From Methanotrichaceae archaeon (GTDB taxonomy: Archaea; Halobacteriota; Methanosarcinia; Methanotrichales; Methanotrichaceae): a stretch of DNA of 36,804 nucleotides. Of this stretch, positions 2,231 to 36,804 are shown in pieces. A program made the position numbers and the translations under genes. Every line of letters starts with the position of its first letter. Position 1 is the first letter of the stretch. A model generated the notes under the pieces. That model was not told the origin of the DNA and made no database searches. It saw nothing but the letters and a program-made list of their open reading frames with translations. The stretch spans positions 1-36,804 of the forward strand of contig JAFGMR010000044.1 in assembly GCA_016927425.1 (NCBI GenBank), given 5' to 3'.

Positions 2231-3881
2231 CCTGACCGCCCATAGTTTTAGGCACGAACCCCCAGCGCTCCGAGGATTTCGCGTTGACGCTTTGTCAGCT
2301 CGGTCATGACTTTCTGCCCGTCTGGTAGAATCATAAGCCGAATCTTTTCGAGCTCCAAAAGGACGGCCTCGACAGAGCACTTCGACAGCAGTTCGCTATC
2401 CTTCATCATACGCATCAACTTCATCCGCATGATCAGCGAGATGAAACACGCAAATAGATATCCGCGTAGAATGCTATCGGTTCTGACGTTTACTGGCATC
2501 ACATCTACATCGTTCTTCAAGACGTCAAATGCCTTCTCGACGAGATCTCTGCTCCGATAAAGCGAGAGGCAGTCATCCCATGTCTGATTGCCACGGTATA
2601 ATAAAATGAACTTTCCCATCTTGTTAACTCTTTGAGATACGGCATTTTGTCTGATGCTGATCTCGAACTTATTGCCATTAAGGCTCCACTCAAAATACCT
2701 TGCATCCCTCTTTGCGACCTCCCTAAATACAACCACTGTATCAAACTGAGGCTTAATGACCACTGATTTAAGCTGTTCTGATAGATCGTAAAGACGTTTA
2801 TAGAATGCTGTTCTTTCTTGCTGCTCTCGTTTCTGATCGTAATAAGCGTATCCCTGAAGGCCAATCTCCCCCACCTCGATTGTAATGGGCTTAACGAAGA
2901 GCGGCTCATTTTGATAGAGCTTCAGATTATTGGGGTCGTCTATGCTGCTATGAATGGCCGAAATTGCCTCTTTGACGCTCTTTAAAGTGCTTGTAGGTGG
3001 GATTATGAAAGAGAGATCGTTTTCTACAAGCTCATATATATTGTCAGTCGAAAATAATCCACGATCCATGATAAGGGTATAATCACGAACACCCATAGAG
3101 TTGATCTTCTTGGCAGTGTTCATCAAAGTGGAAACATCCACAATGCTACCTGGATAGATATCGTACATCACCGGTATTCCCAGCTGCTTGTCAACGATAA
3201 GTGCAAGATTTAGCTGGGGAAGATCGAGGCCATCTCTATTGTATCCATATTCAAGGAGGTTGATCGTCTCAGAGTATGATGAGATCGATGTGATATCATA
3301 AAAGAGGGTGCTCGATGTTGAAACCTGATGTATCAGACGATTTGAGAAGCCAAGATGGATGGCGCTATTTCCGATCGAGCTCAAGAGGTTCGATAGCGAC
3401 TGGGATGAAAGTGAGAGGTTCGGATGTTCTTCATTCAGATGCGTACCTTCGAACCAGCTCTGGATGTGGTAGAGGGCGCGCGGTCGGATCGCATAATTCA
3501 TTGCAAGGGTCAAAAGAGGCCATATATGATGCTCTGGGAGGACTTCTGAGAGAATTGTATCGAGCTTGAGGTCAGCAATGATCTTATTGAACGGGAGAAA
3601 TTCGCCATACGAAAGCACCGTCTTGGGAGGCTGACCTTGAGACCTAACCTTTACAGGAACGCCATTCACGTTCTTGCCGAGGTATTTGGTCTTCTGGCGG
3701 ACCTTGCCTGTCTCCGGATCTTTATAAGGCGTAACCTCGTAAAGGTACTCGATCCCGCTGATCGTCTTGGTTCTGACAAACGGCTTCATTATGCCTAAAT
3801 ATAGGCATCACTTCTATTTATGCTTTGCGCCTAAAGTTACTGAAATTGATAACCTTATGCCTAAATGATTGGGAAGTCAGG
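2231..3881 (-). mobile_element. Complete insertion sequence, IS1634-like (IS4 superfamily), 1651 bp
   Basis: The transposase gene is bounded by imperfect 24-bp inverted repeats. The left end (2231-2254) and the reverse complement of the right end (3858-3881) share CCTGAC, CCCA and TTTAGGCA in register, 18 of 24 positions. The element is flanked by a perfect 6-bp direct repeat TTGAGA (2225-2230 and 3882-3887), read as the target-site duplication. Size, IR and duplication length fit the IS1634 group. It sits between the S9 peptidase and the RND exporter. The intact duplication and uninterrupted ORF suggest a recent, possibly still active insertion. Confidence 0.93.
2248..3789 (-). CDS. IS1634-family (DDE, IS4 superfamily) transposase
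   Basis: Cut-and-paste transposase of 513 aa. The DDE residues are visible: Asp165 (FYDITS), Asp242 (LIMDRGLFS) and Glu418 within the IS4-superfamily Y-(2)-R-(3)-E-(6)-K signature (Y411, R414, E418, K425). The insertion domain between the second Asp and Glu is long, as usual for IS1634 members. The ATG at 3789 lies 92 nt inside the right end of the element and the stop lies 17 nt inside its left end, so the gene fills the element. Its AT-richer composition compared with neighbouring genes is consistent with a mobile origin. No frameshift or internal stop is seen. Confidence 0.95.
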   Translation of the reverse strand: MKPFVRTKTISGIEYLYEVTPYKDPETGKVRQKTKYLGKNVNGVPVKVRSQGQPPKTVLSYGEFLPFNKIIADLKLDTILSEVLPEHHIWPLLTLAMNYAIRPRALYHIQSWFEGTHLNEEHPNLSLSSQSLSNLLSSIGNSAIHLGFSNRLIHQVSTSSTLFYDITSISSYSETINLLEYGYNRDGLDLPQLNLALIVDKQLGIPVMYDIYPGSIVDVSTLMNTAKKINSMGVRDYTLIMDRGLFSTDNIYELVENDLSFIIPPTSTLKSVKEAISAIHSSIDDPNNLKLYQNEPLFVKPITIEVGEIGLQGYAYYDQKREQQERTAFYKRLYDLSEQLKSVVIKPQFDTVVVFREVAKRDARYFEWSLNGNKFEISIRQNAVSQRVNKMGKFILLYRGNQTWDDCLSLYRSRDLVEKAFDVLKNDVDVMPVNVRTDSILRGYLFACFISLIMRMKLMRMMKDSELLSKCSVEAVLLELEKIRLMILPDGQKVMTELTKRQREILGALGVRA

Positions 3882-21625: not shown

Positions 21626-21655
21626 CCTACTTCGTGCCAGCCGGTTCGTCCTGAG
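21626..21655 (+). repeat. 30-bp direct repeat, copy 2 (antisense to the end of the kinase gene)
   Basis: Copy of the rfcS 3' end. Read on the minus strand it supplies the last codons of the hybrid sensor kinase (ending QDEPAGTK) and its TAG stop. Confidence 0.85.
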
Positions 21656-24600
21656 GGTGGCATGACGCCTCCTCCAGAAGGGCCGACCTCACCCTTGAGA
21701 TCTCCATATCGATGAGGATGAGCCTCTCTTCCGCCCCATCCAGATCTCCGGATCTGCCCATCATCTCCACCTGTCTGCAGATCTCAGATAGCCTCAAAGC
21801 CCCGATGTTTGCGCTGCTCGATTTCATATCATGGGCGGCCCGAAATAGGGCTGTTGCATCCCCTTGGTGCAGCGCCGAACGCATCGACTCCAATCGTCCG
21901 GGGAGATTGGACATGAAGAGTTCGCCGAGCTCGCAGACGATATCGGGCTCCCCCTCCTCCTGTAGCTCTCGAAGGCCCTCTAGGATCCTCTGATCAAGGG
22001 CAGGCGTTTGGGGGCGGCTTGCCCGTCGTTGTGCAGCCCTTTCCAGGGCCGAGCGGAGATCTTGGAGCTCGACTGGCTTGGATACATAGTCGTCCATGCC
22101 TGACTGCAAGCAGCGCTCCTTGTCAGCGGCAAGGGCATGCGCGGTCATGGCTATGATCTGCGGACGCTCCTCCTTTGGCCATCTGCTGAGAATTCGCTCC
22201 GTCGTCTCCAGGCCGTCCATCTCCGGCATCTGGACGTCCATCAGTATCAAGTCGTACCTCTGTCTATCGAGAGCTTGGAGAACCTCGATCCCGCTTGCGG
22301 CCACATCGGCCCTGTAGCCCATCCGCGCAAGCATCTTCAAGGCAACCTTCTGATTGATCGCGTTGTCCTCGGCAAGCAGGATCCGCAGGGGATGGCGCCG
22401 GGCGACCTTCTCGTCCAACTTGATCCGTGGTGAAGGCCCTTGAATGGACTCATGAGGTGCGGAAGGCTGGAGAATCGATCTCGCGCGAATGGAGAAGTAG
22501 AATGTGCTCCCCTTGCCCGGACTGCTCTCCATCCAGATCCGGCCCCCCATCATCTCCACAAGCCTCTTGCTTATGGCAAGGCCAAGGCCAGTTCCCCCGT
22601 ACTTCCTTGTTGTCGTGGAGTCCACCTGGCTGAATGACTGGAATAGGCAGCTCTGGCGGTCGGGACGTATGCCGATTCCCGTATCCTCGACCGATACGAG
22701 TATTCGATGGAGGTCTCCCTTGCCAAGCATATCCTCAGCCTGGATCCCGGTCAGGGCAACGATCGCCCTGTTCCAGGCGATCACCTTGCCCTCGCGGTCG
22801 ATGACGAGCGTGGGATCGGGCAAGAACTCGATGATATCTGCAAGCCGGCGTTCGGACTCCTTGAGCGCAACCTCAATCCTCTTCCTCTCTGTGATGTCGC
22901 GAGCAAATCCGCAGAGCCCTATTATCGTGCCGGAGTTGTCCCTAATGGGTACCTTCACCACGTGGAGGGTGGTTGGGACGCCCTTGATCGGCTTTGTATA
23001 CTCCTCGTCCACGATCTCGCCCTCCAGTACCCGGGAGTCGAGCTTTGAGAGGTATCGAGCAGCATCGCTTCCGAAGAGATCCGAGTCCGACTTTCCGACC
23101 ATCTCATCCATTGGGATCCCAAACAGCCTGGAGACTGCGGGATTGACCTGGACGTATCGAAGCTGGCGGTCCTTTATGAAGATGCAGTCCTGGGCGGTCT
23201 CGAAGATCGTGCGAAAGCGCTCCTCGCTGTTCCTGAGGCCCTCCTCGGAGCGCTTGTTCATGATGGCTGAGCCAAGGCTTCCAGCAGATACCCACAGAAT
23301 CGATACCTCTCCCTTATCCCATTCCCGCTCCAACCTTCCCTCGGAGAAGCCCACAAATCCCCAGAAGCGTCCATCGATCACTATGGGAACTGCGAGGATC
23401 GAGAGGATGCCCTCTTTATTCAGGACCTCTTGCTCCTCAGGCGGAAAGTCCCTGGCGAGCCCCTTTACGGCAATCCCTCGCACCAAGTGGGACCTCCAAC
23501 GGGCAAAGCTTCCATCGAGAGGGAGGACGGATAGCGAGTCCTCATGCCCGGATCCGTCCCGGGACCACATGAACCTCCTCTCAGCGAAGAGCTCCCCGGA
23601 ATTGGGATCTTCCTGGTTCTCGAAGACGTAAGCCTTCTCGGCGTCGGCCGCAAGTCCAAGCATCTCCAGGGACTGATTCACAGCGGACTCGAAGTCGGAG
23701 ATCGTGAGGAGGACGTTTGCTGCAACGGCGACTCCGGTCAGGAGGGAGTCGCGCTTGAGGAGCTGCTTTTCGGCAGTCACAGAGTCGGTGATGTCCCTCA
23801 TCGACTCGATCGATCCTAGCACCTGGCCCTTGTCATCCATTTGCAACGAGGCCTTGGCCCAGAGATGAGATCCACGGCCCTGGTTTAAGGCGGGCACGAA
23901 GACCCGGGCGAATAGCGTATCTCCCTTCCGTTCGATCTTTCGATAGAGGTAGCGCTCCATGGAGATGGGGACCGCCTCAGACTCCGCCATGCCCACGAAG
24001 TCAATCAGCATTGGCCTGGGCTTGCCGTAGAATGGAATTGCATAAGCATAATCTCCCTTTCCGATCATCTCTTCCTTGCCAACGCCCGTCATCTCCTCCA
24101 TCGCCCGGTTCCAGGCGATCACCCGATCGTCCTTATCGATGGCGAAGGTCGCATCCGGGAGGAAGTCGATGATGTGCTCCAACCTCTGACGAGCGGAGCA
24201 GAGCTCCTCCTCTGCTTCCTTGCGCTCGGTGATATCGTAGATTATCCCCTGATAGTGTGTGATCCTTCCCTCGTCATCGCGCCGGACGAGGGAGCGGTCC
24301 TCCACCCAACGTGGCTCTCCAAGCTTTGTGAGGATTCGATAGATCTGGGTGAACTCGTCAATACCTGGAAGGGAGAATGAGACAACCACCTTCTCTACCC
24401 TCTCCCTATCATCGGGATGTATAATGCTCGAGAAGGTGAGGCCGTCATGAAAGTCCCCCGGCCGATAGCCGAACTGCTCTATGCTCTCAGAGACCAGCTC
24501 AACCGGCCATCCATCCTCGGCACGGCGAAGGAAGACGACTATCGGTCCCCGATTGATGATCTCCTCGAGCTCTCTTCGCCTCGAGAGCTCCCTTTGAAGG

Positions 24601-25970
24601 GCGATCTCCGTGTTTGTATGCCCCACGATCTCCTTTCGGAGATCCTTGTTGACGCGGTCGAGCTCCAGAGTGCGCTCCTTTACCCGCACCTCCAACATGT
24701 CCCGAGCCTGGCGAATGGAGTCTTCCAGCCTCTTCCTCTGGACCAGCCTCCACATGCCGTCCATCATCAGAGTGAGCTGTCGAAGATCGGTATCGTCGTA
24801 TGGCTCCACCTTATCGGCAACTCCCGCGAGGGCCGCTATCCTCTCTTCATCGAAGATGGGAACGCTCATCAACCGATTCAGCGCGGTGTCCTGAAGGACG
24901 GGCGACGCGGCAAGAGAGGGATCTTGGACCACGTTTTCCACAACCGGCCTTCTCTGGAAGAGCACCTCCCCCCAGATCCCCGCATCGGCAAGGGGGATCT
25001 CCACATCCTGGTCCAAGAGCGATTGATGGGTACTTTCGAAGTGCCAGGAGTGCATATGGAGCGTTGACCCGTCCGGTCCGATGGATGCGAGATAGCCGAA
25101 TTTGCTGTTGGTGAGCTTCACCGCAGCCCGCAGCGCAAAGGCGATGATCTCCTCCAAGTCAGATCCGGTCATCTGATTGAGCTTGAGGAGGGCCTCGAGC
25201 CTGGCCTCGTCCAAGAGCAAGGCATCTTCTCCCCTATTGCGCTCCGTCACATCCCTGAGGGTGGCCATCACCGATCGAATCTCGCCTTGGGCATCCCTGA
25301 CGGGGCTTAGGATGTACTCGAAGGTTCTCGCCCCCCTTGGTAAGGCATAGCTGAACATCCCATCGCAGCCCTTGCCGCTTTGAATGACCGCCTCGATCTG
25401 GTCCTCCATCTCGGGAACGACGTCGGAGGATGGCAGCACTTCCACCAATCCCTTGCCGATAATCGCTTCGCGTTCGACATCGAGGACGCTCGAGAGGGAT
25501 CGGCTAACGTAGACAAAACGCAGATTCCTGTCGAATATTGCGATGAGGTCTGGCGAGGCAGAGAGTATCTGTTCCAGCATCCCGGATGCCTCAACCTGCA
25601 GGATCGATGGATCGAGCCCCCTTAGGTCAGCGTCGAGCTCAGCGGTCGACCCCAGCATGTACTCGATCTGCCCTTCGGGTCCGGGAATGAGGGAAATCGT
25701 TGTGCGATATGCTTTCGATCCTCGCCTCCAGATGATCGGGGCTTCAGGCATATCCAAGCTGCCGAGATGGCGGGTCTCAACAGAGGCGTTTGGTCCTTGG
25801 AATACCTCCTCCAACTTCCGACCTTTGGCTTCCTCAAGGGAGCAGCCCGTCAGTGTCTGGAAGGCGGGGTTGAGATAGATCACCCGTCCCATCAGGTCTG
25901 AAATATGAACTGCCTCCGAGAGTCTGTCCAGAATTGGAATATACAACTGAACCAGGTCCATAGCCATCAT
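21627..25970 (-). CDS. Large PAS/GAF hybrid sensor with truncated kinase core, REC and HPt
   Basis: About 1447 aa, no TM segments, so a cytoplasmic sensor. Domains in order: two PAS (about 8-235), GAF (258-400), coiled coil (405-460), two PAS (460-720), GAF (745-900), PAS (910-1030), an incomplete PAS that breaks off after GKGD, then only the second half of a HATPase (DTGIGI, GGTGLGLAISKRL), receiver (ILLAEDN...LMDVQMPEMDG...SKPVEL) and HPt (AAHDMKSSSANIGA). The HisKA phospho-acceptor helix and the ATPase N-box are missing, an in-frame loss of roughly 230 residues with its junction near 22705-22715. Autophosphorylation is therefore unlikely, but REC-to-HPt transfer is possible. I start at ATG 25970, which overlaps the cyclase stop by 4 nt (ATGA); 25967 and 25961 are alternatives. 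The frame further upstream lies within the cyclase gene and is not coding. Confidence 0.9.
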   Translation of the reverse strand: MMAMDLVQLYIPILDRLSEAVHISDLMGRVIYLNPAFQTLTGCSLEEAKGRKLEEVFQGPNASVETRHLGSLDMPEAPIIWRRGSKAYRTTISLIPGPEGQIEYMLGSTAELDADLRGLDPSILQVEASGMLEQILSASPDLIAIFDRNLRFVYVSRSLSSVLDVEREAIIGKGLVEVLPSSDVVPEMEDQIEAVIQSGKGCDGMFSYALPRGARTFEYILSPVRDAQGEIRSVMATLRDVTERNRGEDALLLDEARLEALLKLNQMTGSDLEEIIAFALRAAVKLTNSKFGYLASIGPDGSTLHMHSWHFESTHQSLLDQDVEIPLADAGIWGEVLFQRRPVVENVVQDPSLAASPVLQDTALNRLMSVPIFDEERIAALAGVADKVEPYDDTDLRQLTLMMDGMWRLVQRKRLEDSIRQARDMLEVRVKERTLELDRVNKDLRKEIVGHTNTEIALQRELSRRRELEEIINRGPIVVFLRRAEDGWPVELVSESIEQFGYRPGDFHDGLTFSSIIHPDDRERVEKVVVSFSLPGIDEFTQIYRILTKLGEPRWVEDRSLVRRDDEGRITHYQGIIYDITERKEAEEELCSARQRLEHIIDFLPDATFAIDKDDRVIAWNRAMEEMTGVGKEEMIGKGDYAYAIPFYGKPRPMLIDFVGMAESEAVPISMERYLYRKIERKGDTLFARVFVPALNQGRGSHLWAKASLQMDDKGQVLGSIESMRDITDSVTAEKQLLKRDSLLTGVAVAANVLLTISDFESAVNQSLEMLGLAADAEKAYVFENQEDPNSGELFAERRFMWSRDGSGHEDSLSVLPLDGSFARWRSHLVRGIAVKGLARDFPPEEQEVLNKEGILSILAVPIVIDGRFWGFVGFSEGRLEREWDKGEVSILWVSAGSLGSAIMNKRSEEGLRNSEERFRTIFETAQDCIFIKDRQLRYVQVNPAVSRLFGIPMDEMVGKSDSDLFGSDAARYLSKLDSRVLEGEIVDEEYTKPIKGVPTTLHVVKVPIRDNSGTIIGLCGFARDITERKRIEVALKESERRLADIIEFLPDPTLVIDREGKVIAWNRAIVALTGIQAEDMLGKGDLHRILVSVEDTGIGIRPDRQSCLFQSFSQVDSTTTRKYGGTGLGLAISKRLVEMMGGRIWMESSPGKGSTFYFSIRARSILQPSAPHESIQGPSPRIKLDEKVARRHPLRILLAEDNAINQKVALKMLARMGYRADVAASGIEVLQALDRQRYDLILMDVQMPEMDGLETTERILSRWPKEERPQIIAMTAHALAADKERCLQSGMDDYVSKPVELQDLRSALERAAQRRASRPQTPALDQRILEGLRELQEEGEPDIVCELGELFMSNLPGRLESMRSALHQGDATALFRAAHDMKSSSANIGALRLSEICRQVEMMGRSGDLDGAEERLILIDMEISRVRSALLEEASCHPQDEPAGTK

Positions 25971-26629
25971 CTCCCGGAGAGAAGCACAGCTCGAACTGGG
26001 GAGGCTTCTCCGCCCTTGATCTTCAAGGGCAAACAGATGAGGGTGTAGATGCCTTCGGGAACGCCGCCGAGATCCATCCCCTCCATTATGAGGATCGCCT
26101 CTTCCATGAGACGGCGATGAACGACATCCTCGCCGAGGGCGTCGACCGAGAGGGAATCGATCCCGACGAGCCCAAGTCCGAGCTTCACGCAGATCGAGGC
26201 CGCATCCGCCGTCAGATGAGACCAATTTTCGCCAGAGGTGCGAAAGAGGAGCGCCCAGCCCTCCATCGATCCAAGTACTGCGAGGTGATGCGAAGCCACG
26301 AGGCCTCCATCTACCTCGATCACCCTTGCCGGCAGTATGAATCTGTCCGGAGGATAGCGATCTATGCTCTGGCCCAATTTAAGATGGGCCGGGCAGTCTA
26401 TATGCGTTCCTGAGTGCGCGCTCATCGTCAACCGGGATAGTTCCCAATGGTCGTCATCGATCGGCTCGCGCGAGAATGGCGGATCTCCGGGATATGCGAT
26501 CTCCTCCCCTAACGTAACGCTTACATCGTATATCCTACTCCTTGCGACATCTCTATCGATCAAGAGATCATAGCTCCTTTTGCCATCCCACCCCTCTGCG
26601 ACTTTCCTTATGGCATCTCTATCGATCAT
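25967..26629 (-). CDS. Cyclase-family metal-dependent hydrolase (kynurenine formamidase-like)
   Basis: 220-aa member of the cyclase family (PF04199 type), which includes kynurenine formamidase and isatin hydrolase. The metal and catalytic motif HSGTHIDCPAH (His72, His76, Asp78, His82) is intact, preceded by YDVSVTLGEEIAYPGDPPF and followed by ARVIEVDGG and GVDSLSVDALGED-like (GIDSLSVDALGED) segments typical of the family. The real substrate is unknown; methanogens often carry such genes without tryptophan degradation. ATG 26629 lies 16 nt after the upstream gene's stop, and its own stop overlaps the start of the sensor gene by 4 nt, so it sits in the middle of a three-gene operon. Confidence 0.9.
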   Translation of the reverse strand: MIDRDAIRKVAEGWDGKRSYDLLIDRDVARSRIYDVSVTLGEEIAYPGDPPFSREPIDDDHWELSRLTMSAHSGTHIDCPAHLKLGQSIDRYPPDRFILPARVIEVDGGLVASHHLAVLGSMEGWALLFRTSGENWSHLTADAASICVKLGLGLVGIDSLSVDALGEDVVHRRLMEEAILIMEGMDLGGVPEGIYTLICLPLKIKGGEASPVRAVLLSGR

Positions 26630-27569: not shown

Positions 27570-30500
27570 TCACATTGCGGCTTTTCGATCCATGAACCTC
27601 TCCAGAGCTGCCTTCAAGTCCTCGATCTTTACCGGTTTGCTGATGTAGTCATCCATCCCTGCATCCATGCACCTCTCCCGATCGCCCTTGAGTGCATAGG
27701 CGGTCATGGCCACGATCCAAGGCTTGCGGATACCATCCTTTCGAATCCGTCGAGCGGCCTCCAACCCGTCCATCTTGGGCATCTGGACGTCCATGAAGAT
27801 GAGGTCGTAATCCCTCTTCTCCAATGCATCCAGAACCTCTTTGCCATTCGCTGCTATATCAGCTGCAAGCCCCAGGCGGCGAAGCATTGCCATGGCCACC
27901 CGTTGATTGACCGGATTGTCCTCGGCCATCAGCACCGACAGGTCGAAGAGCCCTCCAATACTTATGCTCCTGCGTTCCATCTCACGATCTGGGGATATGG
28001 TGGGGCTTAGAAGCCTGAAGAGCAATCGATAGAGTTGTTCTGGCTTAACCGGCTTCGGAAGACTTCCCGAAGCCCTTGTACGCAGCGAATCCCCGCTTCG
28101 CGACGGCGGCTGGATCAGCACAACTGGCAGATCCGCAGGCAGGCACCGGCCGTTTTCCGCCTGGTCGATCAGGGCCAGCTCTGCCCCCGTCTCGCCGCGC
28201 GAAAGGATCGCCACACCCCAAGAGCTCAGGTATCGCTCGAGCATCCTCCTCGTCGGTCCCTCCACCATCAGACAAACCCGCCGCCCGACGAGCCCTCTCC
28301 TCTCTTGAATAGGGGGATTTGCTGCTGGTTTCGTGACGACGGTGAAATGGAATGCGCTTCCTTCTCCCTCCCGGGATTCGGCCCAGATCCGGCCGCCCAT
28401 CAGCTCCACCAGGCGCTTGCTTATGGCAAGCCCTAGACCGGTCCCGCCGAAACGGCGGTTCACTGAGGGATCGAGCTGGTCGAATGGAAGGAAGATCCTG
28501 TCCATCTTCCCTTGAGGAATGCCTACCCCCGTATCCTTGATGGCGAAATGGATCTCCAATGCCCCTCCTTTGGGAGAGGATTCATCGAGGATTTGCGCCC
28601 CGGCTGAGACCTCCACTACACCCTTTTCAGTGAACTTGACGGCATTTCCGAGCAGGTTTAGCAGGACCTGACGGAGCCTCGCCTCATCCGCCATGATCAT
28701 TGCAGGAAGGGATTCCTCCGGGAGGCAGGTCAGCTCCAATCCCTTCTCCGCAGCCTTTGGGGCCAGGAGGTCGAAGGCTTCCTCGATGCATCTTAGGGGA
28801 CTTGTGGGGCAGCACTCGAGATCCATCCGACCGCTCTCTATCTTTGAGAGGTCCAGGATATCGTTGATCAGATGGAGCAGGGTGTCCCCGCTACTTCGAA
28901 CGATATCCAAGTACTCCTTCTGCTCTTCGCTTAGCGGCATCCCGCAAAGGAGGCTTGCCATGCCGATGATGGCGTTAAGTGGAGTGCGGATCTCGTGGCT
29001 CATGTTGGCGAGGAAGTTGGACTTGGCCTGGTTTGCCTCCTCCGCGACCCTCTTGGCCACTCGAAGCTCCATCTCCGCGCGCTTGAGCTCGCTGATATCG
29101 CGGGCAGAGGTGATGACAACGTTCACCTTGCCCTCTTTGTCGAACTCCGGCATCAACAGCCAATCGATCCAGCCGCCGCTCGGATGCCGAAATTCCACGC
29201 GGTTCACCTTCCCGGTCTTGAAGACCACATCTATGGCATCCTCCCAGAACAGGCAGAGGTCTTCTGGAAATCCAAGCTCTCGGTGGGTTCTTCCTATGAA
29301 CTCATGAGGCGCAATTCCCGTATCCAATTCCACATTGGGGTTTGCGTAAAGATGGCGGTGGAACCTATCGAAGCGCATGATCGTATCGAGTGAATGCTCG
29401 GCCAGCGCTCGGAATTTTCCCTCGCTCTCCTGCAACCTCTCCTCCGCTCGCTTGCGCTCCGTAATATTCATTGATACATTGACAACGCCCTGAAGCTGCC
29501 CATTGCCGTCTTTGATAAGGGAGCTTCTGGATAACCAGACCTTGCCGTCAGGAGTTGGGAACTCTCCCTCCTGTGAGACCCCGGTATCAAGGGACTCCCT
29601 CACAGTGCATCCCGGACAAGGCGCCTTTAGACCCTGAAGGACATCGAAACAGTGCTCGCCTTTGATCTCCTCCAGGGATCTCCCGAGAAACCTCAGCACT
29701 GCCTCGTTGACCCAGATGATGCGCATAGAGGGATCAAGATACTCCACTGCGACATGCCTGAGACCGCTTAGGATCGCCGCCTTCTCCCGCTCTGAGCTCA
29801 CAAGCGCCTCCTCCGCGCTCCTGCGCGCTGTGATGTCGCGTATGGACTCGATTGCCCCGATAATGGAGCCACTGCTATCGTATAGAGGAGAAGCAACAGC
29901 TAAGAGGTAAGCGCCCTTGCCCCCATAAAGCCTGGGGACGAAGACCTCTCCGATCAGCTTATTCCCATCTACCCGAACATTAGTGTATTTATTCTTGATC
30001 TCCTCTATGGCCTGGAATACCAGATCGATGATGGCAGGTCGGGGCCTGCCATAGAATGGCACTGCATAGGCATAATCGCCCTTGCCGACCATCTCCTCTT
30101 TCGATACACCTGCCATCTTTTCGATCGCCCGGTTCCATGCGATGACAACGCCATCCCTGTCGACGACGAACGTTGCATCCGGCAGAAAGTCGATTATGTC
30201 CGCAAGCCTCCGCTCCGAATCTCGCAGCCTCTCGTCCGATAGATGCCGATCGGTCTGATCTCTCACGACCACCAGATGGGCCTGCCTTCCCTCGTATGCG
30301 ATCTCTGCCAAGTTCAGCTCGGCGTAGACCGGCTGGCCATCTCTCCTCTGGAGCATTGTCTCGTAAAAGGATTCGACCTCCCCCCCTGCAAGGCGGCGGC
30401 GGTAGCGGTCCATCACCTGCGAAACGGCATGGGGGTGGATGAACTCGGTTATAGGATGGCCGATGATCTCCTTTGATCTCCCGCCCCACATCTGGGAGAT

Positions 30501-31556
30501 GACGGGATTTGCGTACATCACAACGCCGTCCTCGATAATGCATATCCCGTCGTTTGCCTTCTCCACGAGCAGGCGATACTTATCCTCGCTCTCTCGAAGC
30601 CTCTCCTCGACCTGGCGTCTCTGGCTGATATCGGTGACCGCAGTAATCGACCCGATGATGCGGCCGTTTTCCAATCGCGGGGTTCCGCTTATCAGGGCAT
30701 GCAATGTGGATCCATCGGATCTCTGAAGCCTGACCTCGTAGGTCGAGGCCTTGCCGGATAGGCGCTCCTTCCTCGCCTGGCTCAGCAGAGGGAGGTCATC
30801 GGAGTGGACGAACTCCTCCATGGAGCGTCCCAGAATCTGCTCCAAAGGCCGGCCCAGCATTCCGGCAAGGGCTGGATTTGCGTACTCGATTGCCCAACCC
30901 TCTCCGGTCACGAGCACTCCCTGTCCCAGGGCATTCATGATCTGGCGGTTGTAATCCCTCTCCTGGCGGATCTCCTCCTCCGCCCGCCTCCTCTCAGAGA
31001 CCTCATCGACCAGAGACTGAATGGCGCCCTTGAGCTCTGCCGTCCGCACTCTTGCGACCACCTCAAGCCCCCTTTGGCGGTCAGCGAAGGGGGTTCGATA
31101 TGCATCACCGCCTTGCGCAATCAGTGGAAAGCGCTTAAGAATTTCCATCTGATTTCCAATATCCATCCCATTCCATGGGCAAAGACAGGCCATCACAACT
31201 GGGAGGCGATCCAGAAGGTCCTCGATGCCCTCCTCGCGCAGGCTTTCGCCCCCTCCATCGATCTCAACGAGCACCATCAGGGCAGTGTGACCCTCCGCCA
31301 GGGCCGTCTTTGCCTCCTCTTCCAGCAAGGAGAGCGTGGCCGGGAGGGATCCTGGTGTCTTCAATCGTTTTATTGGAGGGGATCCGGTCTCGTTTAAGGG
31401 GCCGCATCCCAGATGGAGGACCTTCCATCCCCCGGCAATGCTCTGCCTCAAGAGAGCGGAGAATCCAGCCGCTCGCTCCTCAGGTGATCGATAGAGCAGG
31501 CAGAGACGATCCCCTATCCTCAACTCATCCCAAGATAGAGGCTGGCAAGGACGCAT
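27570..31556 (-). CDS. MEDS-PAS hybrid histidine kinase with pseudo-receiver and receiver
   Basis: 1328-aa cytoplasmic sensor kinase. Residues about 10-170 match the MEDS (methanogen/methylotroph DcmR) sensory domain (IGDRLCLLYRSPEERAAGFSALLRQSI). Next come a coiled linker and five PAS domains to about 870; the fourth holds APCPGC, a CxxC pair that could bind metal or sense redox. HisKA has the phospho-acceptor in NMSHEIRTPLNAI; HATPase has the N-box NLLGNAVKFTEKG, DTGVGI and GGTGLGLAISKRL. A degenerate receiver (GRRVCLMVEGPTRRMLERYL...LPKPVKP, without the acceptor Asp) precedes an intact one (VLMAEDN...FMDVQMPKMDG...ISKPVKI). There is no HPt and no output domain. The ATG at 31556 is 26 nt from a TATA box, so the mRNA is probably leaderless. 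The gene lies next to the kinase-dead sensor that carries an HPt. Confidence 0.94.
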   Translation of the reverse strand: MRPCQPLSWDELRIGDRLCLLYRSPEERAAGFSALLRQSIAGGWKVLHLGCGPLNETGSPPIKRLKTPGSLPATLSLLEEEAKTALAEGHTALMVLVEIDGGGESLREEGIEDLLDRLPVVMACLCPWNGMDIGNQMEILKRFPLIAQGGDAYRTPFADRQRGLEVVARVRTAELKGAIQSLVDEVSERRRAEEEIRQERDYNRQIMNALGQGVLVTGEGWAIEYANPALAGMLGRPLEQILGRSMEEFVHSDDLPLLSQARKERLSGKASTYEVRLQRSDGSTLHALISGTPRLENGRIIGSITAVTDISQRRQVEERLRESEDKYRLLVEKANDGICIIEDGVVMYANPVISQMWGGRSKEIIGHPITEFIHPHAVSQVMDRYRRRLAGGEVESFYETMLQRRDGQPVYAELNLAEIAYEGRQAHLVVVRDQTDRHLSDERLRDSERRLADIIDFLPDATFVVDRDGVVIAWNRAIEKMAGVSKEEMVGKGDYAYAVPFYGRPRPAIIDLVFQAIEEIKNKYTNVRVDGNKLIGEVFVPRLYGGKGAYLLAVASPLYDSSGSIIGAIESIRDITARRSAEEALVSSEREKAAILSGLRHVAVEYLDPSMRIIWVNEAVLRFLGRSLEEIKGEHCFDVLQGLKAPCPGCTVRESLDTGVSQEGEFPTPDGKVWLSRSSLIKDGNGQLQGVVNVSMNITERKRAEERLQESEGKFRALAEHSLDTIMRFDRFHRHLYANPNVELDTGIAPHEFIGRTHRELGFPEDLCLFWEDAIDVVFKTGKVNRVEFRHPSGGWIDWLLMPEFDKEGKVNVVITSARDISELKRAEMELRVAKRVAEEANQAKSNFLANMSHEIRTPLNAIIGMASLLCGMPLSEEQKEYLDIVRSSGDTLLHLINDILDLSKIESGRMDLECCPTSPLRCIEEAFDLLAPKAAEKGLELTCLPEESLPAMIMADEARLRQVLLNLLGNAVKFTEKGVVEVSAGAQILDESSPKGGALEIHFAIKDTGVGIPQGKMDRIFLPFDQLDPSVNRRFGGTGLGLAISKRLVELMGGRIWAESREGEGSAFHFTVVTKPAANPPIQERRGLVGRRVCLMVEGPTRRMLERYLSSWGVAILSRGETGAELALIDQAENGRCLPADLPVVLIQPPSRSGDSLRTRASGSLPKPVKPEQLYRLLFRLLSPTISPDREMERRSISIGGLFDLSVLMAEDNPVNQRVAMAMLRRLGLAADIAANGKEVLDALEKRDYDLIFMDVQMPKMDGLEAARRIRKDGIRKPWIVAMTAYALKGDRERCMDAGMDDYISKPVKIEDLKAALERFMDRKAAM

Positions 31557-31740: not shown

Positions 31741-34700
31741 CTATGTCGACTGCCCCTCGACGATCTTGATCTCGTCCTCAGTCAGGTCGTACAGCTCGTA
31801 GACCAGGACGTCTATCTGCTTGTCCGTGGCCTCTATCCGGCGCTGGAGGGCGGTCTGCTCCTGGGGCGTCTTGGACTCCGATAGCTGCTTATGAAGGTCG
31901 AGCATCCTCTCCACCAGGGAGACCATGTGGTCATGGCGGGCCACGTCCTGGGGGTCGGAGAAGTCGATGGTGCGGATGGGACTCTTCATTATAAAAATTG
32001 CTGAGAAATTATAGCTATTACCCTGAAGGTCTGTGCATACATTGTGGATAAATAATTTCATCAAAGAAGAGTTTAACAGTCCTAATAGATAATAATCAGT
32101 GATTGGAATTAAATAAAGTTTATTATTCCCGTATAGATAAGAACCATCAAAGGTAAATCTTGCACTTCCTGCAATCTCCGGCCATAATATCTTCGGCTTC
32201 TCGAACTCCGCATAGTAGTCTATCGTATCCTGAACCTCATACCACTGATACGCCCCCGGCTTCCTACCCCCCCATTTCCCCCCGGTCCAGTCCTTTGGTC
32301 TAGGCATTAGCTGTTGCTTATACTGGGCCAGATGTCTTTCGATGGCCGGATAATCCTTGATATTCACGCCGCGCCTGGTGAAGACCAGGTACTTCTCCGT
32401 CGTGGGCGGCTGATACCTCTTGATATCCCTCCCCGCCAGGAAGGGCTTGATCAGCTCCGCGCTCTTTGGATCGTCTGCTATCAGCCTCTCCCTGGTCTGG
32501 CCATCGATTACGAAGGCCTGGTTGAGGCCCGTCTTGATGCCGTAATATATCTTCCCACCTACGTACTCCCCAAGGGTGATGCCTCGGCTCTTCACCTTCT
32601 CCAGAAGGGCCACTATATCCTCCCCCTCAAGTGACCAACCTGAATCATCAAGGGAGGCAACTCTCACCTTATGGGAATGCTCCTCAACGTAGCTTATTAG
32701 GTCTGAAAAGTCCAGAGTATTCACCTGGGTAGCCAGGAAGCTCTCAGCAGACGGCCTTTTCTGGATGTGAATGATGCAGGGATAGGTGGTGGCCTTGGTG
32801 AAGACATGCAGGTCTCCAAAGTCCACTATCTCCTCTATGCGTTGGTCTTTGAGCCATCTTCTGAGAGGCTGACCATAGTTGGCTCTCATCCACTTGTTGG
32901 AGACGATGTAGGAGAACTGGCCACCATTTCGCAGCAAGGTGACTCCCTTCTCGATGAAGTAGGCGTAGAGATCGGCTACCCCACGATAGACCTGGTAACG
33001 CCCCTGCAGATACGTCTTCAGGGACCCAAGGCTCTCCTGCCTCACATATGGCGGATTCCCGATCACCACATCGAACCCGCCCCGCCCCATGATCTGAGAG
33101 AACTCCCGCCCCCAGTCGAAGGGGTTGATGCGAAGTATCTCCTCCGGGGCCAGCTCTCCTGAATCGAGGATGTCCGGCCCCACAAGCGAGTTCCCGCACT
33201 TGATATTCTCCCCCAGGTCAGGCAGCGCCCTCTCCTGGAAGAGCTTCATCTGCCTATCAAGTGTCTGCTCGTTCTCCCCCTCCAGGACCTTGAGGAGAAG
33301 GGAGAGCAACGTCACCTCCACAGCCTGGCTGTCGATATCCACCCCGTAGATGTTGTTTAGGAGGATGCGCTTCCTCTCCGCCGAGGTGAGGAGCCACTCT
33401 CCGCTCTGGGAGGGATAGATGGGCAAGACGGCCTGGCCCTTCTTCCCCTTCTTGGCCCTCCCCTTCCCGCTGGCCTGGGGCTGCTCTGTTGTGGGGATCA
33501 GCCTCACTACCTCCGGGGATGCGGCCTCGTGGCCGTTTGCGAGAAGGGGTACCAGCTTCTCTACGTACCAGTCCCTATGCCAGTTCATCAGGTATTGGTA
33601 GGCCTCGATCAGGAAGGAGCCCGAGCCGCAGGCAGGATCCAGGATGCGAAGCTCCGCCGCCTGGGCAGGGGTCATCCCCTCCAGCAGCCGGCCAACGGTG
33701 TTCTCGACGATGTACTTCACGATGTAGGAGGGCGTGTAGAACACGCCGCCGGCCTTCTTCACCTCAGGCTTGTGCTCGACGACGGCCCTATGCCCTGGGG
33801 TGAGCCGGATCACCTGGCCCAGGAACTGCTCGTAGACCTGGCCCAGGATCTCTGCGGGAAGGACAGAGAACTCGTAGGGGCTGTCTGGGTAGTAGAGACG
33901 CCTGATGATCTCCTTCAGAGCCTTGTCGTCGAGGGTCAAGCCCAAGGAGAGCCTGTCAGGGGGGCCTCGGCCAGCCTCGGGCTGAAAATGAAATATGCCG
34001 GAGTTGTACTTCTCGTCCGCCCTGTGGAATAGCTCTCTTAACCGGGGATAGACGCGTTCTCCGTCGAGCAAGGCCTGGAGCTGGCCGTACCTCTCGATCC
34101 CCCGGTCCTCGCAGATCCGCAGGAAGACTATCCGGTCGATGGTTGCCTGGACTGCGTAGTTCAGCTCCTCCTGGCTGAGGTCGGGATTTCGCAAGGCCAG
34201 GTTCCTCGCAAGAAGGTCCCTCCATGAGGCCATCTCCTCCAGGAAGGCTGCGTCCACCTCGGCAGTTCCCCTCTTCGCCTTATTCTCCTCTGCGAACTTG
34301 TCGAAGGATCCTTTGAGGATGGCCTCCTGGGAGAAGATGCTGGCGATCTCGTCCCAGCGGTCGATGTACTCGTCGTAGGTGATATAGAGGACCCTCGCTT
34401 TGCTTGCCTTATCCGTCTTGACCGGCCTATCCCGGCAGTCGTAGACCGAGAACTCCTCGAAGTCGGTTAGGATGCTCAATGGGAGCTTGGCTGACCAGGC
34501 ATAACGGCGCACCTGGAAGGCTGGGTGGATGTCTGCTTTGATGTCCATCGAGGGCTTCTTTGTCTCCACGAAGAACTTCCTCATGGGGCCGATGCGGAAG
34601 GTGTAGTCTGGGGCCTTCTTCTGTCCTTCCACCTCAAGGGAGTCCTCGTGGATCACCTCCTTGTAGGCTTCAGCGTAGCCCTGCTCGTTGAAGACATCCC

Positions 34701-34833
34701 ACCCCATGGCCTTGAAGAATGGGTTGATGAACTCCTGTCTGAGCCTTGCCTCGTTGTAGCTGGCTGACTTGTAGGCATCCTCATAGCTCTTAAACCGCTC
34801 CACGAGGTCTACTATCTCCTTAGGCGCCGCCAG
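31741..34833 (-). CDS. Type IIG (Eco57I-like) restriction-modification enzyme
   Basis: Single-chain enzyme of about 1030 aa that both cuts and methylates DNA. Counting from GTG 34803, the nuclease has PD (65-66) and ETK (80-82), a PD-(D/E)xK site. A helical linker follows. The methylase core has motif I LDPACGSGSF (388-397), the acidic GVDIDSQAVE and motif IV NPPY (583-586) for N6-adenine methylation. A C-terminal specificity domain (about 740-1000) resembles TaqI/Eco57I target-recognition regions. The nearest ATG/GTG start is GTG 34803, but AGGAGG (34841-34846) stands 7 nt before an in-frame CTG at 34833, and the ten extra residues (LAAPKEIVDL) continue the helix, so a CTG start is proposed. 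Next to VapBC and CRISPR, it forms part of a defence cluster. Confidence 0.9.
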   Translation of the reverse strand: MAAPKEIVDLVERFKSYEDAYKSASYNEARLRQEFINPFFKAMGWDVFNEQGYAEAYKEVIHEDSLEVEGQKKAPDYTFRIGPMRKFFVETKKPSMDIKADIHPAFQVRRYAWSAKLPLSILTDFEEFSVYDCRDRPVKTDKASKARVLYITYDEYIDRWDEIASIFSQEAILKGSFDKFAEENKAKRGTAEVDAAFLEEMASWRDLLARNLALRNPDLSQEELNYAVQATIDRIVFLRICEDRGIERYGQLQALLDGERVYPRLRELFHRADEKYNSGIFHFQPEAGRGPPDRLSLGLTLDDKALKEIIRRLYYPDSPYEFSVLPAEILGQVYEQFLGQVIRLTPGHRAVVEHKPEVKKAGGVFYTPSYIVKYIVENTVGRLLEGMTPAQAAELRILDPACGSGSFLIEAYQYLMNWHRDWYVEKLVPLLANGHEAASPEVVRLIPTTEQPQASGKGRAKKGKKGQAVLPIYPSQSGEWLLTSAERKRILLNNIYGVDIDSQAVEVTLLSLLLKVLEGENEQTLDRQMKLFQERALPDLGENIKCGNSLVGPDILDSGELAPEEILRINPFDWGREFSQIMGRGGFDVVIGNPPYVRQESLGSLKTYLQGRYQVYRGVADLYAYFIEKGVTLLRNGGQFSYIVSNKWMRANYGQPLRRWLKDQRIEEIVDFGDLHVFTKATTYPCIIHIQKRPSAESFLATQVNTLDFSDLISYVEEHSHKVRVASLDDSGWSLEGEDIVALLEKVKSRGITLGEYVGGKIYYGIKTGLNQAFVIDGQTRERLIADDPKSAELIKPFLAGRDIKRYQPPTTEKYLVFTRRGVNIKDYPAIERHLAQYKQQLMPRPKDWTGGKWGGRKPGAYQWYEVQDTIDYYAEFEKPKILWPEIAGSARFTFDGSYLYGNNKLYLIPITDYYLLGLLNSSLMKLFIHNVCTDLQGNSYNFSAIFIMKSPIRTIDFSDPQDVARHDHMVSLVERMLDLHKQLSESKTPQEQTALQRRIEATDKQIDVLVYELYDLTEDEIKIVEGQST

Positions 34834-34867
34834 ACGAAATCCTCCTGCGAGATAGGGTGGAGGTCAT

Positions 34868-34880
34868 CGGATATTAAGGC
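34868..34880 (-). promoter_or_regulatory. TATA box of the restriction-modification gene
   Basis: Minus-strand GCCTTAATATCCG is placed to start transcription near 34849, just upstream of the AGGAGG at 34841-34846. This short leader favours a start close to 34833 rather than 34803. Confidence 0.45.
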
Positions 34881-34924
34881 TCGCGGAGGGGCCGCATAAT
34901 CCGCTGTGGGCAATTCAATCAATT

Positions 34925-35104
34925 GCTGCAATCACCGATGGGACAAACATGGATGGCCTTTGGGGCTGCATTCAGGAAATCCTGTGGCCTAATTGCTTCA
35001 ATGGGTCCACGACACGGTGGTCATGGTAAGCGACGGGTCGTCTGTTGTGGTCGCCGATAGCACCGCGAGCCTCAATGAGGCCCTTGCCATGCCTGCCAGG
35101 AGCT
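34925..35104 (-). CRISPR. Fossil CRISPR fragment separated from the main array
   Basis: At 34995-35030 lies a 36-nt sequence matching the main-array repeat at 32 of 36 positions (ends GTCATGGTAAG; the stem arms CCA-GAC/GTC-TGG are unchanged, changes fall at position 2, in the G run and in the loop). Exactly 38 nt to its right, GCCTCAATGAGGCC (35069-35082) matches the repeat's 5' 14 nt at 11 positions. Exactly 38 nt to its left ends a segment with CAAT and CATGG in nearly the right places (34925-34956, about 4 nt short). Array spacers are 35-38 nt, so the spacing supports three old repeat units. Only the middle one is certain. The rest of this gap, up to the vapC stop at 35190, shows no gene. 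Confidence 0.75.
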
Positions 35105-35189
35105 GCCCCGAGGACCGTCGAAGCGATTGACGGGCGCTTCTATCTTTGGATAGCGGCGGCCACGTATTCCCCATAAGATGCTTTGCTAT

Positions 35190-35615
35190 TCATCCGGTAA
35201 GGATTGGCCAGATCAACCGAACGTTCTTCTCAGCCTTCGCTCTTTCGTACATCTTCTGATCGAGGGTCAGAAGCGGCACTTGTTCCCCCTCCGATGCCGC
35301 GAGAAATAGGGAATCATAGAACGTAGTCTTGCATTCCAGAGCAATGTCATATGCCAGGCTGGCAAGATCTGCTGAGGATATTAGGGTGCAAGATCTGATA
35401 AAATCCAGGCATGCGCATAGCGACTGCCTGGAAGCGTCCCTGTCTTCTCCAAACATGACAACCCTCTTCCAGGCAACATTTCCAACTTCAGCCACGGCTA
35501 GATCCAGAGTTATTGGGCTGCAGCCGGCAACGATCTCCATAGCCTGCTCAGATCCATCCTCTTCGAAGTAGAGAGCGACAATGACGCCAGTATCGAGGAC
35601 GGCTCTATCTCGCAT
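35190..35615 (-). CDS. vapC: VapC-like PIN-domain toxin (RNase)
   Basis: 141-aa PIN-domain ribonuclease, the toxin of a type II toxin-antitoxin pair. The acidic metal-binding residues are visible: Asp8 (LDTGVIV), Glu in VAEVGNVAW, Asp in FYDSLFLAAS and Asp in LLTLDQKMYERA. Targets of VapC toxins are usually tRNA or rRNA; the target here is unknown. The start overlaps the 3' end of the vapB-like gene by 11 nt, so translation is coupled and antitoxin is made first. The pair lies between the fossil repeat and the main CRISPR array, on the same strand as the array. Confidence 0.92.
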   Translation of the reverse strand: MRDRAVLDTGVIVALYFEEDGSEQAMEIVAGCSPITLDLAVAEVGNVAWKRVVMFGEDRDASRQSLCACLDFIRSCTLISSADLASLAYDIALECKTTFYDSLFLAASEGEQVPLLTLDQKMYERAKAEKNVRLIWPILTG

Positions 35616-35835
35616 CTCTGTCCTCTCTGATCAGGTCCGAGGCGCTTACGCCTATATTTCTGGTTTGCTTCCGGAGCTCTCTACCATCTGCCAACAGCTT
35701 CTGCCTTCTCTTCTCTTTCACCAACTCTTCAATGGAATGTCTAATGTCAGATTGCCAGTTGACATCTTTCATCTCATCCATCATCTGTCGGATCGCTGTA
35801 GGGATGCGGATCGTATACACACTGCTTGTAGACAT
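35605..35835 (-). CDS. vapB: VapB-like antitoxin (ribbon-helix-helix)
   Basis: 76-aa basic/acidic protein. The N-terminal strand SSVYTIRIPTAIRQMMDEMKD followed by helices fits a ribbon-helix-helix DNA-binding domain; the C-terminal charged tail (KEKRRQKLLADGRELRKQT...) would wrap the PIN toxin. It precedes vapC with an 11-nt overlap. ATG 35835 is 25 nt from a strong TATA box, a leaderless arrangement, and a perfect 12-bp palindrome sits just upstream, the expected operator for autorepression by a VapBC complex. Confidence 0.87.
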   Translation of the reverse strand: MSTSSVYTIRIPTAIRQMMDEMKDVNWQSDIRHSIEELVKEKRRQKLLADGRELRKQTRNIGVSASDLIREDRDAR

Positions 35836-35836
35836 A

Positions 35837-35866
35837 TTAGCATGCTAAACGTGAAGATATATACAT
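35837..35866 (-). promoter_or_regulatory. vapBC promoter with palindromic operator
   Basis: Minus-strand ATGTATATATCTTC (TATA, centre about 35860) is followed by the perfect palindrome TTAGCATGCTAA at 35837-35848, which covers the predicted transcription start one base before the vapB ATG. Position and symmetry suit a ribbon-helix-helix repressor. Confidence 0.65.
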
Positions 35867-35934
35867 TTTCTCATTGTCTGCAATTCGTAAACATAAATGT
35901 CACTCGATGCGGGAACAGCATTGTCAACAAGCAA

Positions 35935-36804
35935 GTTTGAATGGATCCACGACCCGGAGGTCATGGTAAGGCCCCAGTAACGCAACGGGGCTAATCTCGC
36001 TGGGCAAGGTTTCAATGGGGCCACGACCCGGAGGTCATGGTAAGTCGCATCTCTGAGTGCCAGTTACCCTGAATATACGGCGTTTCAATGGGGCCACGAC
36101 CCGGAGGTCATGGTAAGCCACCGGAGTGGGGCAATGCGGGTGGAGGTATTTCCGGTTTCAATGGGGCCACGACTCGGAGGTCATGGTAAGACTACTCGAC
36201 AGATATGAAATCAAGGTGGAATATATACGTTTCAATGGGGCCACGACTCGGAGGTCATGGTAAGCCCCGCCACCACCAACAGCGAGCTCCCTGGAAAAGC
36301 GTTTCAATGGGGCCACGACTCGGAGGTCATGGTAAGACCGGCACCTGAAGGTAAGCCCGCGCCTAGGGTGTTTAGTTTCAATGGGGCCACGACTCGGAGG
36401 TCATGGTAAGAGAATATGGACGATGAAAAGAAAATGAGTCCTGGTGTTTCAATGGGGCCACGACTCGGAGGTCATGGTAAGGGGAATGGTTCCGCACGAG
36501 ATCAGAGAATGTGGATTCGGTTTCAATGGGGCCACGACTCGGAGGTCATGGTAAGCGACCATTGACCATTGGGGAGATGAGAAGCACATTAGTTTCAATG
36601 GGGCCACGACTCGGAGGTCATGGTAAGGAAGCTCGCAGGACAGAGATTTCTGCGAGAAGTGCGTTTCAATGGGGCCACGACTCGGAGGTCATGGTAAGGG
36701 CGCTGATGGTAAGATAGTCGGCTGCCGCAAGTTCGTTTCAATGGGGCCACGACTCGGAGGTCATGGTAAGGGCAGCCCTTTTGCGGCCCCGCTGTATAAC
36801 GAAA
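35935..36804 (-). CRISPR. CRISPR array, 12 repeats of 36 nt, continuing off the right edge
   Basis: Repeats start at 35935, 36009, 36082, 36155, 36229, 36301, 36375, 36446, 36520, 36592, 36663 and 36735. On the plus strand each begins GTTTCAATGGGGCC and ends GGTCATGGTAAG. Spacers are 38, 37, 37, 38, 36, 38, 35, 38, 36, 35 and 36 nt, with a twelfth cut at 34 nt by the window end. The reverse complement ends in ATTGAAAC, the usual crRNA 5' handle, so the array reads on the minus strand. The repeat at 35935 has three 5'-half changes (terminal degeneration) and the first three have GACCC where the rest have GACTC, so the old end is on the left and the leader lies beyond 36804. The repeat folds as CCAcGAC/GTCaTGG with a 6-nt loop. 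No cas gene is in the window. Confidence 0.98.

Follow-up and report, generated by a model that had tools for sequence, protein, structure and literature searches.

Genes and CRISPR array in the window

The analysed window, a stretch of 36,804 nucleotides from contig JAFGMR010000044.1 of a Methanotrichaceae archaeon (genome G000), carries near its right end a CRISPR array, a vapBC toxin-antitoxin (TA) module behind the array and a further CRISPR repeat beyond the module (Table 1). To the left of these features lies the gene of a type IIG restriction enzyme-methyltransferase. A 71-bp piece of its 5' flank (34822-34892) recurs at 90% identity beside another gene on contig C67 (5043-5113), the related flank aligning only up to 34892. 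Near the defence genes, 21627-26225 and 27570-31556 each encode a very large hybrid histidine kinase with PAS and receiver domains, and a DDE transposase gene is located at 2248-3789.

Table 1. Features at the right end of the window, with positions in the whole stretch.
Feature	Positions	Strand	Remarks
Type IIG restriction enzyme-methyltransferase, 1020 aa, defence gene	31741..34803	-	PF07669, PF12950; PADLOC REase_MTase_IIG E=2.1e-214
Stretch left of relic repeat, next to 5' flank of restriction gene	34893..34994		
Relic CRISPR repeat beyond vapBC (CTTACCATGACCACCGTGTCGTGGACCCATTGAAGC)	34995..35030	-	Hairpin intact
Stretch between vapC and relic repeat	35031..35189		159 nt; 35069-35104 marginally repeat-like
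vapC toxin, PIN domain, 141 aa	35190..35615	-	PF01850 E=9.7e-9
vapB antitoxin, 76 aa	35605..35835	-	NF050799 E=1.2e-20, 73.9 bits, cut-off 60
Intergenic stretch with vapBC promoter	35836..35934	-	TATA-like block and palindrome
Trailer-most array repeat, partly degenerate (CTTACCATGACCTCCGGGTCGTGGATCCATTCAAAC)	35935..35970	-	
CRISPR array, 12 repeats of 36 nt, 11 spacers of 35-38 nt	35935..36770	- (crRNA strand)	Oldest end at left
Start of CRISPR leader, cut by contig end	36771..36804	-	Aligns with sequence after last repeat on C65 and C55

Contigs C76, C65 and C55 have a common sequence after the last repeat, on its right side, and the repeat, when reverse-complemented, ends in ATTGAAAC, the usual crRNA 5' handle. 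These two features place the leader at the right and the reading direction of the array on the minus strand. The degenerate 35935 repeat is therefore the oldest, with vapBC downstream of the trailer and the 34995 repeat beyond it, in agreement with the original prediction that the module occupies the old end of the array. At least four CRISPR arrays or mini-arrays are present in the genome. Contig C55 (locus L010, 330-593) has, after a leader, a mini-array made up of a single spacer between two repeats; the second of these is degenerate and has a loop resembling that of the 34995 repeat.

The vapBC module and its promoter

A complete type II pair, vapBC, occupies 35190-35835 on the minus strand behind the oldest repeat. 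vapB lies directly upstream of vapC, the two reading frames overlapping by 11 bp, and VapC has the conserved acidic residues D8, E43, D101 and D119 (alignment A4). The upstream region contains a TATA-like block, GTATATATC, at 35856-35864, within a 16-nt block (35854-35869) located 20-35 bp upstream of vapB. This 16-nt block is identical upstream of vapBC copies without a nearby repeat, and the module therefore arrived with its own promoter. A perfect palindrome, TTAGCATGCTAA, at 35837-35848 just upstream of vapB, is plausible as a putative VapB operator. Around the promoter, the imperfect inverted pair TTGCTTGTTGACA (35822-35834) and TGTCTACAAGCAG (35922-35934) constitutes either candidate VapB operator half-sites or a chance seed match. 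An Rfam search gave no match.

Judged by its sequence, VapBC here is an ordinary type II protein pair with its own promoter. It resembles other type II VapBC systems in that both components are proteins, the gene order is vapB-vapC, a dedicated promoter is present and the profile matches are at family level. Unlike the usual type II VapBC, the pair lies behind a CRISPR trailer and has a relic repeat on its far side. Linkage to repeats is no requirement, because a CRISPR repeat is missing from the neighbourhood of most relatives of this VapBC; a VapBC family bound to CRISPR was rejected, since a full-length copy beside a repeat was found only in G000, G010 and G048 among the loci scanned. The original prediction had named vapBC at this place in related strains without an array remnant as a finding against it, to which these relatives, lying elsewhere, correspond only in part.

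The repeat beyond vapBC

The sequence of 34995-35030, GCTTCAATGGGTCCACGACACGGTGGTCATGGTAAG, is identical to the main array repeat at 32 of 36 positions on the same strand. Scored with a profile of the repeats from the genome's three arrays of the same type, itself left out, it reached 45.3 bits, against 12.8 bits for the best non-array match in the 36.8-kb window; as a control, 200 kb of family DNA peaked at 11.8 bits with a family-wide repeat profile. The four substitutions, at positions 13, 17, 25 and 35 in crRNA orientation, all fall outside the hairpin stem, and the predicted hairpin energy is -9.3 kcal/mol versus -9.5 kcal/mol for the array repeat. The element shares with array repeats its 36-nt length, strand, high identity and hairpin, bearing out the earlier claim of an array repeat in the same orientation. 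The start-to-start distance to the first array repeat (35935) is 940 bp, close to the approximately 900 bp first given.

Other parts of that claim fared differently. Repeat-like segments exactly 38 nt to each side of the 34995 repeat had been proposed; with a window of ±3 nt allowed around the spacer-length offset (neighbours at -74/+74), the left candidate (34921) gave P=0.30, the right candidate (35069) P=0.033 and both jointly P=0.048, and such further repeats are marginal. Nor is the gap filled by vapBC and its promoter alone, as had been stated: the 159 nt at 35031-35189 gave no match outside themselves in the sequence search, and homology to vapBC copies elsewhere in the family is limited to approximately 35212-35870. 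The stretch 34893-34994 also gave no match outside itself at useful E-values. What stands of the proposed fossil array is an authentic repeat beyond vapBC, apparently a single one and not a tract.

The flanks of the 34995 repeat were checked for leader-like sequence and none was found, so the repeat does not look like a separate leader-borne array. Apart from the repeat pair, no target-site duplication was detected around vapBC. The 14-nt inverted repeat flanking 34995 (34873-34886/35063-35076) was rejected as a real element and is probably due to chance, because its left arm belongs to the restriction gene's 5' flanking sequence, which recurs on C67.

It is improbable that 34995 represents an independently scattered solo repeat, and not the old tail of the array, with vapBC merely lying between the two. 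Such scattering would fit the leaderless solo repeats common in relatives and the marginal flanking pattern around 34995, but not the genome-wide repeat search, in which this is the only G000 repeat outside an array or mini-array, nor the strand and repeat type that it shares with the neighbouring array 940 bp away. A dispersed repeat was the other finding named beforehand as contrary, and it is realised in the relatives but not cleanly in this genome.

Search for a possible guide RNA and cas genes

In CreTA, the first 11 nt of the guide pair with the toxin promoter, and partial seeds of nt 1-5 and 7-11 are used (PMC8501985). A comparable arrangement here, in which the spacer-like sequence after the 35935 repeat would yield a crRNA-like guide repressing vapBC through partial seed complementarity, is very improbable. 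The first 12 nt after that repeat agree with the complement of the vapB start (35822-35833) at 10 of 12 positions (shuffle P=0.007, uncorrected), the repeat hairpins are intact and CreTA itself works with such partial seeds (PMC8501985). The match is, however, one of 14 tests and not significant after correction, it does not recur at the homologous loci of G010 and G048, its mismatches at nt 1 and 9 fall in the critical CreA seed, and the inverted pair would also be accounted for by a VapB operator half-site. Seed complementarity was at chance in 13 of the 14 TA-adjacent spacers, and CreA-type seeds in this set were rejected, the single uncorrected match not being conserved. Both vapB and vapC encode protein partners of type II, whereas CreTA has an RNA toxin without an antitoxin protein.

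Searches confined to Cas1, Cas6 (PF10040) and RAMP proteins (PF03787) gave no match in the G000 draft, which is 99.24% complete, and this may also count against a guide. The arrays of this genome may be orphan, or contigs with cas genes may be absent from the assembly, since C76, C65 and C55 end at the leader or close to it. With seeds at chance in 13 of 14 spacers, spacers not conserved between homologous loci and these proteins not found, the comparison with CreTA drawn in the original prediction was not sustained.

TA modules beside repeats in Methanotrichaceae

Solo repeats and short arrays of the same repeat superfamily are widespread in relatives, and adjacent TA modules were found by reading the flanks of repeats and scanning the encoded proteins. 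Seven kinds of TA are present at most 500 bp away from an array end or a solo repeat, usually immediately downstream: VapBC (G000, G010, G048); MNT-HEPN/HepT, in which MNT has a HEPN or HepT partner in G003, G008, G011 and G027, the partner in G010 and G048 being decayed or cut off; HicBA (G018, G032); PemK/MazF (G027, G032); UPF0175-PIN (G032, with UPF0175 alone in G031); a YafQ-like toxin (G025); and DUF4258-MqsA (G027). Repeats lie on both sides of the TA module in G000, G010, G018, G027 (contig C35) and G032. In G003 and G011, the TA separates two arrays, with the trailer of the first on one side and the leader of the second on the other; a location inside a single array was rejected, each block having its own leader. 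Many solo repeats have no adjoining TA, and some trailers carry unrelated genes.

At locus L150 of G032 (contig C81, 1768-3665, minus strand), HicBA, a repeat, MazEF, UPF0175-PIN and a second repeat follow in series on one strand. Behind the trailer of the C65 array in G000 stands a co-oriented gene for a ribbon-helix-helix protein; it may be one half of a TA and was left out of the counts.

Repeat and module also behave as a unit. In one MNT family, G008, G010 and two G048 copies can be aligned over repeat, intergenic promoter and gene. G010 and G048 share the order repeat-spacer-repeat-vapB with unrelated spacers; the first repeat of G010 is of the G000 type, unlike the array that G010 itself carries 8.6 kb away. 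Since repeat and module are shared and the spacers differ, repeat and module were inherited or moved together, with the spacer free to change, which favours a boundary role for the repeats over a guide function.

Enrichment and strand bias

A genome-wide search of ten genomes yielded approximately 127 MNT and 71 PIN genes. Six MNT genes, each co-oriented with its repeat, lie at most 400 bp downstream of it, against 0.09 expected for 44 repeat clusters (Poisson P ~9e-10), and 3 of the 71 PIN genes lie at most 700 bp downstream, also against 0.09 expected; the expected counts assume uniform gene placement and ignore islands, the variable islands shared by arrays and TA modules inflate chance proximity, and P values here and below are optimistic, the genomes having been chosen partly for such loci. 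All 14 loci with a TA at most 500 bp from a repeat are co-oriented with the crRNA strand of that repeat, assignments that rest on inspected ORFs, some loci having been inspected on the repeat strand only. Other flanking ORFs of at least 100 aa are divided between the same (31) and the opposite (36) strand, differing from the TA loci with Fisher P=1.5e-4. Strand-blind, Pfam-wide searches for MNT and PIN gave 9 of 9 co-oriented genes within 400 bp. PADLOC counts were uninformative as a test of TA enrichment.

These figures bear on passive hitch-hiking, in which TA modules and arrays pile up in the same variable islands, a module that settles behind an array is harmless, antisense ones are removed since head-on transcription would disturb array or module, and the TA gives the array nothing. 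This alternative is a serious one, although its chance falls somewhat short of even. The vicinity of the array as a defence island with a type IIG enzyme next door, the predominance of G000 VapBC copies that are not array-linked and the unrelated genes at some trailers all agree with passive accumulation, which would account less readily for a TA-repeat proximity far above the uniform expectation, for the lack of strand preference among other flanking genes and for the MNT family that keeps its repeat in three genomes.

Proposed role of TA modules at array ends

The vapBC module, placed between the oldest repeat of the array and a relic repeat of the same family, is one case of a recurrent, strand-biased linkage. 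The suggestion in the original prediction that the module is kept at the array end because it is useful is indirectly supported by the repeated finding, across the family, of TA modules co-oriented with neighbouring repeats. Its likeliest function would be that of an ordinary addiction pair which, by its position, makes loss of the array end costly, with passive accumulation as the main rival. More broadly, trailer ends may collect addiction modules that persist as repeat-plus-TA units and possibly stabilise the locus; this broader reading is about as probable as its negation, selection for array stability being its hypothetical step.

Mechanistically, array ends would be tolerated landing sites for TA modules, and the repeats flanking a module would serve as short homologies through which repeat-plus-TA units could be exchanged or left behind as the array decays. 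VapC would act as an RNase neutralised by VapB, and VapB would repress its own operon. Deletion of the module, for example by recombination between the flanking repeats, would free the toxin, and TA-bearing array ends are proposed to persist for this reason. The same-strand rule suggests that leader-driven transcription into the module may be harmless or useful.

TA-CRISPR linkage is known in general. In Sulfolobales, vapBC pairs are interspersed in CRISPR-Cas gene cassettes, and a role in CRISPR maintenance in the population has been proposed (PMC4390879). The present case is similar in the physical linkage of TA pairs to CRISPR-Cas; however, the Sulfolobales pairs lie among cas genes, whereas the Methanotrichaceae modules belong to many families and lie directly downstream of arrays or solo repeats, co-oriented and with no need of nearby cas genes. 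CreTA likewise has ectopic, partly degenerate repeats beside a toxin gene (PMC8501985, PMC9458426). In CreTA, the toxin CreT is an RNA and the CreA RNA guide seeds on the creT promoter, while G000 has a protein toxin and antitoxin and no reliable seed match.

Chromosomal integrons store many unrelated TA families in a repeat-separated array in one orientation, as is seen for the repeat-linked TAs of many unrelated families in Methanotrichaceae. Here, by contrast, the recurring element is a CRISPR repeat and not attC, no integrase is implied and the modules per locus are few. That trailer ends are integron-like stores of TA cassettes, with many-family units of repeat and TA operon moved by repeat-mediated recombination and kept by addicting the cell to the array, as a protein counterpart of CreTA, is an unlikely extension.

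Among the papers available for searching, none was found to describe TA modules at array trailers. The question addressed is why old array ends persist despite deletion-prone repeats. Should protein addiction modules gather at array ends, these ends would be protected as TA cassettes are thought to protect integrons, and CRISPR maintenance would be tied to ordinary type II TA systems, beyond the RNA-based CreTA. The pattern offers a simple survey test, namely the frequency and strand of TA modules at trailers versus leaders.

Further observations at repeats and leaders

Near-identical genes for a small secreted protein lie beside solo repeats in G029 and G031 (locus L132, 195-440, and locus L141, 2626-2940), and non-TA genes too can thus travel with repeats. 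In the array leaders of loci L096 and L097, a block TTTCGGCCTTTA..GCTATCGAAAAA is conserved between the genera of G003 and G011 and resembles the leader of G000.
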